From Sulfurospirillaceae bacterium (GTDB taxonomy: Bacteria; Campylobacterota; Campylobacteria; Campylobacterales; Sulfurospirillaceae), in contig JAQUGO010000001.1 in the NCBI GenBank assembly GCA_028684065.1, forward strand, positions 1 through 64,000: DNA of 64,000 bases. The letters run 5' to 3'. Below the pieces are notes generated by a model, which was given only the letters and a program-made list of their open reading frames with translations, ran no database searches and was not told the origin of the DNA. This document shows positions 56,605 through 60,292 of the stretch, in pieces. The translations under genes were made by a program, and so were the position numbers. The first letter of the stretch is position 1. Every line of letters starts with the position of its first letter.

Positions 56605-56947
56605 AATAGTCTCGTATTGTATTAATAAGGTCCTTACGAAATTGATCCGTCAATGCTGTAATTTTTTCCTCTAATAAAATATTGGTTTGATGGAATGGAG
56701 CGTCATTTTCAGTTAAACACTTTAGGTTGTACCAGAATTTATCTAACTCAATCATTAAGGAAGATTTAGAAAAAGGAATCAGTAAATTCCCTTCTATAGA
56801 AGAGATATAAAAAATAGGTTTATCAAGCTCAATCTTTTTATCACTAATAACGAAATCACACTGTTTATAAGAAACTATTATTTCTCCTAAAAAGCTTTTA
56901 AGTGCACGACTTAGTAGTAAAGATTGGCATACTACAGCTATTTTCAT
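56594..56947 (-). CDS. Conserved hypothetical protein, Cj1460-like position
   Basis: 117 residues without a recognised domain; begins MKIAVVCQSLLLSRALKSFL, like a short receiver-style strand-helix, but the acidic residues of response regulators are not evident. It is coupled to rsmD. Divergent from flaG. Possibly linked to flagellar regulation by location only. Confidence 0.65.
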   Translation of the reverse strand: MKIAVVCQSLLLSRALKSFLGEIIVSYKQCDFVISDKKIELDKPIFYISSIEGNLLIPFSKSSLMIELDKFWYNLKCLTENDAPFHQTNILLEEKITALTDQFRKDLINTIRDYCGQ

Positions 56948-57000
56948 TCCTTGCCTTTTCCATTGATTATCGAAATAGTAACACAGAAAATCTTAATAGT

Positions 57001-57027
57001 TAAACAAAATTTATCTTATGTCGATGT
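57001..57027 (+). promoter_or_regulatory. Sigma-28 promoter of flaG-fliD
   Basis: TAAA at 57001-57004, 17 bases, CGATGT at 57022-57027, 40 bases before the flaG start. Same architecture as at flgM. Confidence 0.6.
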
Positions 57028-57067
57028 GGTTTGTAGAAAAAAATGTAAAAATATCAAGGAGGATATG

Positions 57068-57433
57068 ATGGATATATTTAGCACAACCAGCAAACAGGTT
57101 GAAACTGCAGTTACACCAAAGGTTCAGCAACAAACACCTGTACGCCAAGTAGAGCAATCTAATGAAGCAACAAAAAGTCTCAGAGATAACAAACAAGATT
57201 CCCAAAATGTTGCTGAACAATTAAATTACACTGTTAAAGAACTCAACAAACAAATGGAATCACTTGACACCAATGTTACTTTTGGTTTTAATGATAAAAT
57301 TGATACCATGTTTGTCAGCGTTATGGAACGCAGTACAGGTAAAATGATTCGTAAAATTCCTACAGAAGAAGCGATGTCTCTTGCCGAAAAAATGAAAGAA
57401 ATTGTAGGAATGATTTTTGATAAAAAAGGATAA
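57068..57433 (+). CDS. flaG: Flagellar protein FlaG
   Basis: About 121 residues. N-terminal half polar and glutamine-rich, C-terminal half is the FlaG domain (LNKQMESLDTNVTFGFNDKIDTMFVSV, then GKMIRKIPTEEAMSLAEKM). FlaG limits filament length in C. jejuni. I start at the second ATG, 57068, because AAGGAGG lies five to six bases upstream; the long frame from 56924 runs through the promoter. fliD follows after three bases. Confidence 0.88.
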   Translation: MDIFSTTSKQVETAVTPKVQQQTPVRQVEQSNEATKSLRDNKQDSQNVAEQLNYTVKELNKQMESLDTNVTFGFNDKIDTMFVSVMERSTGKMIRKIPTEEAMSLAEKMKEIVGMIFDKKG

Positions 57434-57436
57434 GTA

Positions 57437-59887
57437 ATGGCAACTTCTTCATTAAGTTCGCTTGGTCTTGGAAGTAATAGCGTTTTATCTTATGATACCA
57501 TTGATAAACTTAGGTCTGTCGATGAATCAGCTATTTTAAAACCTATTGACAATAAGTTAACAACAAATTCATCTAAAAAAAATGATTTAACTGTATTAAA
57601 TAATTTGACAAAAACGTTTGAATCCATAACAAAATCACTCAGTGATGAATTAAGTTATCTACAAAGATCGGCCACATCATCAAATTCAGCTGTTTCCATC
57701 ACAGCTATTGCAGGTGCTAGTATACAGGACTTTTCTATTCATGTAAATACTCTAGCACAACGTGATATTTACCAAAGCAATGGCTTTGCCACAGCTACTT
57801 CTACCTTTTCAAATTCAACAACATCTGTTGCTGGAACGATTATAACACCAACAGCAACGACAACAGATGGCTTATCTGCTAATGTAGGAGTCACAGAAAC
57901 ATCAGATATTGCGTTCAATGTAGCTGACATGTCTACAGGGGATTCGCTTACAATTGGTGGCCTCACATTAACCGCGACAGGAACTATGACGCAAGCTGAA
58001 GTCATCGCTGCCTTTGAAAATTTAAGTTCTGGTGCAACAACTGGTAATGCTGTTAGTAATGGTACATGGTCTGGTACACTGACAGATTTTAGTTCAGGTG
58101 CAGCAAGTGGCTCCACAATTACATTTACTAGTACAATTGCTGATGCAAATGTTACTGATATTACAGCTTCATCAACGGGAACAACTATTGCGCCAATAAT
58201 TACAACAACTGATGGATCGGCACCTTCGACGGCAATGACTGAGTCAACTTTGGTTTCATTTGATGCTACAGATATGTCTGCAGGCGATACCTTAACTATT
58301 GGTGGTTTAACCCTAACAGCGACTGGAACTCTCACACAAGCAGAAGTTGTAGCAGCATTTTCAAGTTTAAGCTCTGGTGCAACATCTGGCAATGCAATCA
58401 GTAAAGGAACGTGGTCAGGTACTCTTACTGGATTTAATTCAAGTATAGCAACAGGAAATACGATCACCTTTACAAGCACAACAGCTGATACAAATGTGAC
58501 GGATCTTGCTATTTCTGCTACACAGGAAACGGCTGGAAATACAATTGCCGTCCCTGATACATATACTTTAACTATTAATATTGGTGGAGAGGCTTATGAT
58601 CTTGAGATGAGTTCAGGCACAACATTATCTCAGTTATCTGATATGATTAATGATAAAACAGGTGGTAAGATTACAGCTTCGCTCTTAAATGTTGGAGGAA
58701 CAAACCCTTATAAACTTATTATTAAATCAAATGAAGTTGGTGCATCCAATGCCATTACTTTTGGGTCAACCTCAATAAGTGCACTAAAAAATTTGGGGTT
58801 AGATACTGATTCATTATCAGCAACAAACGGAAACCATCTGCAAAATGCAACCGATGCTTCTTTTACGTACAATGGCGTAGCCATTACAAGAACATCAAAT
58901 TCTATTACTGATTTGGTAAACGGTGCTACTATTACCTTAAATGAAAAGCAAACAGATACTGCAACACAAACTAATCTTTCTATTACTCAAGATTTGAGCG
59001 GTATTAAAGATAAAATGTCTACTCTTGTTACCGCATACAACGATCTTATGACAAGCCTTAAAACAGCTACAAAATATGATATAACCACAAAAGAAGCAGG
59101 AATATTTCAAAGTACTAGCCAAATTAAAAATTTAAGTAGTGCGATTAATAGACAACTTCTTTCACAAGATGAAAAAGGAAGAAGTCTTATTGATTATGGG
59201 ATTACTCTTGATAGTACAGGTACATTAAGTTTTGATTCAACCACCTTTGATACAAAGGTAAGTAGTAGTACCACTGATTTAGAAGATTTTTTTAGAGGTT
59301 CAACCACATATTTACCTACAAATTATACAAGTAAGGCTATCTCTGCCAATGCACTTACTATTGCATCGGGAGAGTTTCAAATTAATGGTATTAATATCAT
59401 CTTTAATACTACTGGAACAGATGCACAAAGTAATGCATTAGCATTAAAAAATGCTATAAATGCCGCAGGAATTACAGGTGTTCTAGCAAGTATTGGAAGT
59501 GACAACAACATTAAACTTTCGAGTGCTTCTGGTTATGATATTGCAATTACAGGGGATAGTGCCCAACTAACACTATTAGGATTCAGTGAATCAACAACCT
59601 ATGGAAAAAGTACCACAAGAGATGGATTTTTTACAAAATTTGACGATTTACTTAAACAATACGTTGATGGTACAGATAGCATTTTTGGACTCTTTAGTAA
59701 ACAATTAGATACTGAAAAAACTTCCTTAACTGCACAACGAGTTAAGAGTGTTACAACGTTAGATAAAAAATATGAAGCTATGGCGACGAAGTTTGCTGCC
59801 TATGATTTAATTATCAGTCAACTTAATACCCAATTTGAAACATTATCGCAACAAATCAAGGCTTCCTATAATGGTACAAATAGTTAA
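57437..59887 (+). CDS. fliD: Flagellar cap protein FliD with duplicated adhesin-like insert
   Basis: 816 residues, well above the 450-650 of most FliD proteins. The N-terminal coiled region and D0/D1 part (ATSSLSSLGLGSNSVLSYDTID, then QDFSIHVNTLAQRDIY) and the C-terminal part (SGIKDKMSTLVTAYNDLM, then LTAQRVKSVTTLDKKYEAMATKFAAYD) are typical. Between about residues 140 and 375 two ~115-residue units are inserted, each with DMSxGDxLTIGGLTLTATG, a motif common in large bacterial adhesins. Sigma-28 promoter upstream with flaG. Confidence 0.92.
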   Translation: MATSSLSSLGLGSNSVLSYDTIDKLRSVDESAILKPIDNKLTTNSSKKNDLTVLNNLTKTFESITKSLSDELSYLQRSATSSNSAVSITAIAGASIQDFSIHVNTLAQRDIYQSNGFATATSTFSNSTTSVAGTIITPTATTTDGLSANVGVTETSDIAFNVADMSTGDSLTIGGLTLTATGTMTQAEVIAAFENLSSGATTGNAVSNGTWSGTLTDFSSGAASGSTITFTSTIADANVTDITASSTGTTIAPIITTTDGSAPSTAMTESTLVSFDATDMSAGDTLTIGGLTLTATGTLTQAEVVAAFSSLSSGATSGNAISKGTWSGTLTGFNSSIATGNTITFTSTTADTNVTDLAISATQETAGNTIAVPDTYTLTINIGGEAYDLEMSSGTTLSQLSDMINDKTGGKITASLLNVGGTNPYKLIIKSNEVGASNAITFGSTSISALKNLGLDTDSLSATNGNHLQNATDASFTYNGVAITRTSNSITDLVNGATITLNEKQTDTATQTNLSITQDLSGIKDKMSTLVTAYNDLMTSLKTATKYDITTKEAGIFQSTSQIKNLSSAINRQLLSQDEKGRSLIDYGITLDSTGTLSFDSTTFDTKVSSSTTDLEDFFRGSTTYLPTNYTSKAISANALTIASGEFQINGINIIFNTTGTDAQSNALALKNAINAAGITGVLASIGSDNNIKLSSASGYDIAITGDSAQLTLLGFSESTTYGKSTTRDGFFTKFDDLLKQYVDGTDSIFGLFSKQLDTEKTSLTAQRVKSVTTLDKKYEAMATKFAAYDLIISQLNTQFETLSQQIKASYNGTNS
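57866..58555 (+). repeat. Tandem 345-bp repeat inside fliD
   Basis: Two in-frame units with a period of 345 bases (115 codons): TTDG...DMS.GD.LTIGGLTLTATGT.TQAEV.AAF..LSSGAT, then GTWSGTLT.F and TITFTST.AD.NVTD in each. The copies differ at many third positions, so the duplication is not recent. Confidence 0.85.
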
Positions 59888-59914: not shown

Positions 59915-60292
59915 ATGTCAAGTTTAGCGTATTCAGCTTACTCACAAAATAATATTTCCATTGAATCTTCTGAAAAGTTGATCAAAATGCTCTATGAAGG
60001 AATTTTACGATTTGCTTCACAAGCAAAGCGCTCAATTGATGAAAAAAATATTGAAAAAAAAGCTTATTGGATTAATCGTACTTCTGCAATATTTTCTGAG
60101 CTTATCAATTCTTTGAATTATGATGGAGGGAATATCGCTCATTATTTAAGTGGTCTTTATATCCAACAAATTCGTTTACTTGCAGAAGCCAATATCTATA
60201 ATGATACAACAAAGCTTGATGAAGTGTTAAATGTTACAAAAATACTTCTACAAGCTTGGAAAGATGAGACAGACATTGCCGTGGACGAATAA
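59915..60292 (+). CDS. fliS: Flagellin export chaperone FliS
   Basis: 125 residues, four-helix bundle. It begins SLAYSAYSQNNISIESSEKLIKMLYEG, the family hallmark, and has YWINRTSAIFSELINSLNY. Binds flagellin C-terminus before export. 27 bases after fliD. Confidence 0.93.
   Translation: MSSLAYSAYSQNNISIESSEKLIKMLYEGILRFASQAKRSIDEKNIEKKAYWINRTSAIFSELINSLNYDGGNIAHYLSGLYIQQIRLLAEANIYNDTTKLDEVLNVTKILLQAWKDETDIAVDE

Follow-up and report, generated by a model that had tools for sequence, protein, structure and literature searches.

Why does the flagellar cap protein FliD of a Sulfurospirillaceae bacterium carry two tandem copies of a repeat that looks like part of an adhesin, and what might these copies do at the tip of the filament? 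The gene lies in the window, the whole stretch of 64,000 nucleotides of DNA that was analysed. In the available portions of two papers, FliD is described as a pentamer in which a D2-D3 plate lies on top of the D0-D1 helices, and D4 inserts in FliD are already known, that of C. jejuni lying away from the flagellin cavity (PMC7316729, PMC12221982). The original prediction for the locus was that two adhesin-like 115-residue repeats, maintained since their duplication, may add a binding domain to the cap. Here, we follow these repeats through their sequence, predicted fold, host proteins and distribution.

Results

Two constrained units in a flagellar cap protein

The gene is identified as fliD by domain order, gene order and family score. 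FliD_N (aa 20-109, E 6e-11) is followed by FliD_C (aa 471-797, E 6e-37) in the Pfam scan, the genes stand in the order flaG-fliD-fliS (Table 1), and the protein scores 531.8 bits against the NCBIfam FliD model NF009400, for which the cut-off is 448. A low-confidence model of the protein matches C. jejuni FliD (6sih) in a VIA comparison with Z 19.0 and an rmsd of 12.0 over 350 residues. Nothing marks FliD itself as a type I-secreted RTX adhesin: no HemolysinCabind match was found in it up to E 1, and no type I exporter lies beside fliD, where the neighbours tested are flagellar genes. An antisense open reading frame of 236 aa (57769-58479, minus strand) runs across the repeats and is probably a by-product of codon use.

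Table 1. Features of the fliD region, in window coordinates.
Feature	Position	Strand	Basis or identity
flaG, 5' of fliD	56924..57433	+	Pfam FlaG, E 2e-23
fliD, flagellar filament cap protein, 816 aa	57437..59887	+	ORF, Pfam, NCBIfam
Insert between FliD_N and putative native D3 (ends approximate)	57821..58555	+	Split matches in unit-less FliDs
Unit 1, core aa 152-251	57860..58204	+	Domain family common to RTX adhesins and flagellar axial proteins
Unit 2, core aa 267-366	58205..58549	+	Same domain family as unit 1
Putative native FliD D3, aa ~370-463	58544..58825	+	VIA match to FliD D2-D3 crystal structures
fliS, 3' of fliD	59915..60292	+	TIGR00208, E 5e-36

The ends of the insert were set by eye against the unit-less FliD proteins of the genus. 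Behind it, residues 370-463 of the FliD model resemble 5h5w 122-213 (rmsd 2.6 over 88) and 5xlj 122-215 (rmsd 2.8 over 90), both with Z 8.8 by VIA, and we infer from this model that they form the native D3. With D3 so assigned, the units would sit between the first strands of D2 and D3. Since the full-length model is weak (pLDDT 61.7, pTM 0.38), only the order of these elements along the chain is claimed for the placement of the units.

The two units are direct copies in register, and their starts lie exactly 345 nt from each other, as the original prediction had it, and they lie between the conserved ends of FliD; the span it gave, 57866-58555, is 6 bases off the unit ends on both sides. They are 72% identical over a 254-nt core and 65.5% identical over the full 345-nt register. 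As proteins, the two 115-codon units share 74 of 115 aligned positions (64% of amino acids; BLASTP E 3e-35), and the alignment has 4 gap positions close to its end. Tandem Repeats Finder returned no row for the units in the window, which can happen at such divergence. Mismatches over the 345-nt register fall 34/21/64 on the three codon positions, and the 98-codon core gives dN 0.23, dS 1.68 (close to saturation) and a dN/dS of about 0.14 (NG86). These values indicate that the copies are old and constrained, and the third-position divergence from which maintenance of the duplication had been predicted is real and looks like that of purifying selection.

The composition of the insert raises the alternative of a variable outer shield, whether antigenic, glycan-carrying or directed against flagellum-seeking phages, that is kept for its exposed surface alone. 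Ser and Thr make up 37% of the insert as against 28% of the rest of FliD, and it contains one Lys and no Arg. FliD size also varies widely: across the order, where 103 of 120 genomes gave a match, the FliD frames among the matches listed run from about 440 to 995 codons where they are not obviously cut. Against such a shield stands the constraint between the copies, which are not diversifying, and we consider this reading rather unlikely.

A foreign base composition was looked for and rejected, the GC content at four-fold sites being 0.227 in the insert and 0.197 in the rest of fliD. With no compositional trace left at these sites, any transfer of the insert would have to be old. Cysteine occurs in two of the 65 units that we compared and is absent from FliD; this near-absence would suit export in an unfolded state.

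The units are predicted to form a compact beta-rich domain

Modelled by itself with AF2 (aa 265-370), the unit is predicted to be a domain of about 100 residues, beta-rich, with seven strands and one helix (pLDDT 91.4, pTM 0.81). Foldseek found no match to the unit in the PDB at E <= 0.001. The top VIA rows are phage tail sheaths (8kee, Z 6.0, 2.8 Å over 81), and weaker rows include a flagellin outer domain (9atl, Z 4.6, 3.3 over 89) and residues 102-198 of P. aeruginosa FliD (5fhy, Z 3.6, rmsd 3.2 over 82). VIA's own notes call this range of Z, 3.6-6.0, common; we draw no descent from tail sheaths and see in these rows no more than a hint that the outer-domain fold is widespread. The unit fold is also matched by a predicted viral protein (BFVD A0A1P8VWA9, 263 aa; E 9.8e-7, TMq 0.83, 33% identity).

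Family scans of 32 units gave little. Pfam returned no match at E <= 0.001 and a best E of 0.0063; up to E 0.1, RNaseT2L_C and Nakanori-like appear in three of the 32 units each, and FlgK_2nd and six other families in one each. Two further families touch units below their cut-off of 27 bits, namely Lum_binding at the first unit of L051 (aa 372-396, 23.2 bits) and Ribosomal_TL5_C at the window units (16.1 bits). The PHROGs scan of the same units gave six families, each in one unit, with a best E of 0.011.

Homology of the units with RTX adhesin repeats

A profile built from the eight Sulfurospirillum FliD units was searched against 609 other open frames, and 77 domain matches were obtained at iE <= 1e-3 (best 85.4 bits). 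Duplicates of the same gene account for nine of these matches, and the number is not a frequency, the frames having come from loci fetched with unit profiles. Reversed frames gave no match (best 5.5 bits) and neither did locally shuffled ones (best 4.0 bits); these decoys test composition only, and their silence argues that the adhesin likeness is not a composition effect. In profile-profile comparison over 96-98 columns, the FliD units align with 16 adhesin units at Prob 99.87 (E 6e-32) and with 29 other flagellar units at Prob 99.87 (E 8e-32). Matches to units of the RTX adhesin-like proteins reach E 3e-32 with a mixed profile and 68-81 bits with the FliD-only profile. Thus, on these profile comparisons, the likeness to adhesin repeats is real homology, as had been predicted from a sequence pattern, and the repeats concerned are those of RTX, type I-secretion-type adhesins.

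The same comparisons bear on another possible origin, in which the units are diverged copies of FliD's own D3 or D4, enlarge the head in an ordinary way like H. pylori D4-D5, and resemble adhesins through a shared fold only. The weak VIA likeness to P. aeruginosa FliD and to the flagellin outer domain would fit such an origin, as would the resemblance of the fold of H. pylori D4-D5 to D2-D3 noted in the accessible part of PMC8306008. By profile, the units score Prob 1.33 over 15 columns against native D3 and 0.90 over 21 columns against the D4 block, as against 99.87 for the adhesin units, and a control of native D3 against the D4 block reaches 92.75 (39% identity over 70 columns). The D3 and D4 profiles were built from 16 of the 18 unit-less Sulfurospirillum FliD proteins, two broken frames being left out, and the lack of relationship applies to the D3 and D4-like blocks of these proteins. 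A recent copy of FliD's own domains is therefore disfavoured at the profile level, although a very ancient common origin of the fold is conceivable; we regard the own-domain reading overall as very improbable. The control itself suggests that, in Sulfurospirillum FliD (window about 59300-59550), one of the two native blocks, D3 and the D4-like one, arose from the other, the D4-like region of the unit-less proteins being our own reading of their sequences.

The unit family occurs in axial proteins and adhesins

Where else is the unit found? A profile search of the phylum detected it in six of 397 genomes. The hosts there are the FliD proteins of G000 and G014, a 1,019-aa FlgE in G337, RTX proteins of 1,868 aa (G338) and 2,194 aa (G266), and other large proteins in G338 and G105, the latter without a Pfam match. 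Among named genomes, 25 loci carry the unit: nine FliD genes (four of them Sulfurospirillum genes), seven flagellins (one, L062, called by its C-terminal end only), one FlgE, two RTX or type I adhesin-like genes (L060, with RTX repeats, and L073, a cut frame), five DUF4214 proteins (three with an RTX match above cut-off) and one other (L067). Pfam confirms the RTX repeats of three RTX adhesin-like proteins from Sulfurimonas and relatives (L051, L052, L060). With L073, which is cut by its contig end, these proteins share the domain family of the window units and carry several units each; they differ from FliD in their length of 1,868-2,194 aa and their RTX calcium repeats, FliD using flagellar export. 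The unit-bearing RTX adhesin gene L051:2237-10560 (G266) adjoins two flgG/flgF-like rod genes, as judged by eye.

G022 has a one-unit FliD. The unit also occurs there in a DUF4214 protein and in an adhesin-like frame cut by the contig end (L073), which adjoins an LssB-type exporter (742.3 bits) and an HlyD adaptor (343.5 bits), both above their cut-offs of 693.1 and 208.65, respectively. When long adhesins were sought in the window's own genome, as the original prediction proposed, nothing emerged: there is no second unit copy at E <= 10, and no match to the N-terminus of the unit-bearing G022 adhesin at E <= 0.001. A relative of that N-terminus is present in nine of 24 Sulfurospirillum genomes.

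Burkholderiales and other bacteria carry the same unit between the conserved axial ends of flagellin, FlgE, FlgK and FliD; they differ from the window in that the hosts are mostly other axial proteins, in other taxa. In Betaproteobacteria bacterium WB6_2A_069 (G407, L112-L115) the unit is found in a flagellin of 1,783 aa, an FlgK of 1,141 aa and an FlgE of 1,265 aa, as well as in two overlapping giant frames. The size of these frames and the ABC and HlyD-type genes behind them make them adhesin-like, although both of those genes score below the curated cut-offs (exporter 463.7 against 693.1; adaptor, a cut gene, 181.3 against 208.65). G409 has the unit in FliD and FlgE, and G418 in flagellin, FliD and a DUF4214 protein. 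Seven of 300 sampled genomes of G407's order, G407 included, carry it. Searches of phages and plasmids by tblastn (phage records with three unit queries) gave no match, and in a scan of viral contigs 22 stretches were picked by pattern and none confirmed. At these sensitivities, the family appears rare and scattered.

These hosts also bear on the claim that the repeats add a binding domain, which as stated is not supported, no ligand site having been found and Pfam being silent at E <= 0.001. In its full form this alternative holds that the units are true ligand-binding adhesin domains, that the cap thereby becomes an adhesin, and that duplication raises avidity. Homology to RTX adhesin repeats speaks for it, as does the report, in the part of PMC8306008 available, that FliD mediates mucin adhesion in P. 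aeruginosa PAK. A 1,466-aa FliD of Polynucleobacter sp. MWH-HuK1 (L077:4631-9028), with four unit matches, two of them partial, also carries a C-type lectin domain (PF00059, aa 633-719, E 9.8e-7, above cut-off). This lectin domain, the recognised binding domain of that protein, is separate from the units. Repeats of giant adhesins are usually the extender and not the ligand-binding part, the same module is present in hook and junction proteins, whose need for binding is less obvious, and the Pfam matches to the 32 units are scattered and weak. We therefore consider ligand binding by the units themselves unlikely. Recurrence of the same domain in hook, junction, filament and adhesin-like proteins argues instead for a general structural surface module. 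Downstream of the Polynucleobacter fliD, a flagellin-like frame also contains a partial unit.

The insert fits a single gain within Sulfurospirillum

All 24 Sulfurospirillum genomes match FliD, and the insert is present in six and absent from 18. Two units are found in G000 and G019 and one in G014, G022 and G023 (the fliD genes of G019 and G023 were each pieced together from two contig ends), while the FliD of G020 has one or more units around a 10-N gap. In the 18 unit-less proteins, matches to the window FliD split at aa ~128 and ~376 (1-128 and 376-815) with nothing between, and a search of these proteins with the FliD-unit profile was empty up to E 10. Sixteen of the unit-less frames are intact, at 554-575 aa, and five frames checked have 521-563 codons. 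Alignment of FliD and a count of units in relatives, the check by which the original prediction could have failed, thus gave a lineage-specific element. The fliD frame is interrupted in the unit-less G005 and G021 (L020, L025), by pseudogene formation or assembly error.

On a FliD tree built without the insert, the carriers form one group (support 100/99). The trees comprised 23 rows with five carriers, G022 being left out because its anchor was not found, and 12 rows with all six. The eight Sulfurospirillum FliD units likewise form one group among 65 units (100/93). Together, these trees fit a single gain of the insert in Sulfurospirillum FliD. G022 has a second FliD-like protein of 456 aa without units (L033:1323-2693), near a FliS-like open reading frame; contamination is possible.

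Copy number appears to have changed afterwards. In the 65-unit tree, the only unit of G014 groups with the second unit of G019 (97/91), which indicates a change within the clade by gain or loss. The best G014/G019 hybrid reaches 80.3% as against 75.8% for copy 2 alone, a gain that comes from the linker before unit 1, so no deletion event is claimed. Matches that span less than 75 columns of the profile were left out of the 65-unit tree, and so were the duplicate loci, namely L056-L059, L073, L118 and the flagellin of L112. Of its 62 inner branches 33 are open and the bootstrap had not settled, so that neither the donor nor the direction of transfer can be read from it.

Insertion sites in other FliD proteins

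We compared the site of the unit in five betaproteobacterial FliD proteins with that in the window, where 42 aa separate FliD_N from the units and 104 aa separate the units from FliD_C. In three of them (L063, L065, L066) the site differs, the unit following a D3-sized stretch and stopping 9-14 aa short of FliD_C. In the other two (L064, L117) the unit starts at a distance of 44-57 aa from FliD_N, with 84-89 aa left up to FliD_C, a site much like that in the window. Because these two share the approximate site of the window, the insertion site alone does not prove separate gains. The unit tree does not join the units of Burkholderiales and other axial proteins to those of Sulfurospirillum FliD, and this separate place, together with the differing sites, would suggest more than one insertion of the unit into FliD.

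Discussion

We think it probable that a unit of this family was inserted once into the FliD of the ancestor of a Sulfurospirillum subclade and later served as an extender or decoration at the filament tip. In the mechanism that we propose, a self-folding, beta-rich surface domain of about 100 residues would have entered once at the N-side D2/D3 junction of FliD, and copy number would then have varied between one and two. It would come from a family that builds repeats of RTX, type I-secretion-type adhesins and that is also inserted in flagellins, FlgE, FlgK and other FliD proteins. The conserved D0-D1 helices and the D2-D3 plate would provide for export and cap assembly, so that the extra domains should fold after export and project from the cap head. 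Projection from the cap plate is expected by analogy with the extra D4 of C. jejuni FliD. A pentameric cap with two units per chain would bear about ten modules and leave flagellin folding untouched. The units would enlarge the exposed surface of the tip and may alter how the tip interacts with surfaces, phages or neighbouring cells, as in adhesin stalks; a role as extender, with a benefit in attachment, may follow. An extender or decoration seems to us more probable than a specific binding site, given that hook, junction, filament and cap proteins all have the module among them and that the lectin domain of the Polynucleobacter FliD is separate.

Domain insertion in FliD is not itself new. 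According to the portions available of the respective papers, C. jejuni FliD D4 and H. pylori FliD D4-D5 are, like the units, extra folded domains, for which a role in adherence or virulence has been proposed (PMC7316729, PMC8306008). C. jejuni D4 differs in its place, sitting in the D1 bundle, whereas the window units are placed at the putative D2-D3 junction. The giant flagellins of Oceanospirillales resemble the window in that an outer module is duplicated in tandem in an axial protein, the Domain-Extension duplication then being inherited vertically, as the sections available of PMC6248924 describe; they differ in that the protein is flagellin and not the cap, and we set them beside the unit by description. 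The word 'adhesin' is absent from the main text of PMC6248924, and 'adhesin' and 'FliD' from PMC7018530. The accessible parts of PMC7316729, PMC8306008 and PMC12221982 name no source family for the extra FliD domains, and among open-licence papers, judged by title and the start of the abstract, we found none describing a domain family common to cap, hook, junction, filament and type I adhesin-like proteins. What is new is that this module family is shared.

A broader reading can be put forward tentatively: one extracellular domain family may circulate between flagellar type III export and type I secretion, giving a shared surface code, although we hold this to be somewhat doubtful. The flagellar and type I routes both export unfolded chains, which may explain how one self-folding, nearly cysteine-free domain could serve both. 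If the reading is right, the same module would, in some genomes, coat a giant adhesin as well as the hook, junction, filament or cap, and flagella and adhesins would share a code for common contacts, be it self-association, biofilm matrix or surface.

For Sulfurospirillum, the presence of none, one or two units within one genus offers a natural series for the effects of tip domains on cap assembly, swimming and attachment. The unit profile can be used to find other flagella that share modules with adhesins. In one branch of this genus, the flagellar cap shares a building block with adhesins, and a source family can be named for extra domains of FliD.
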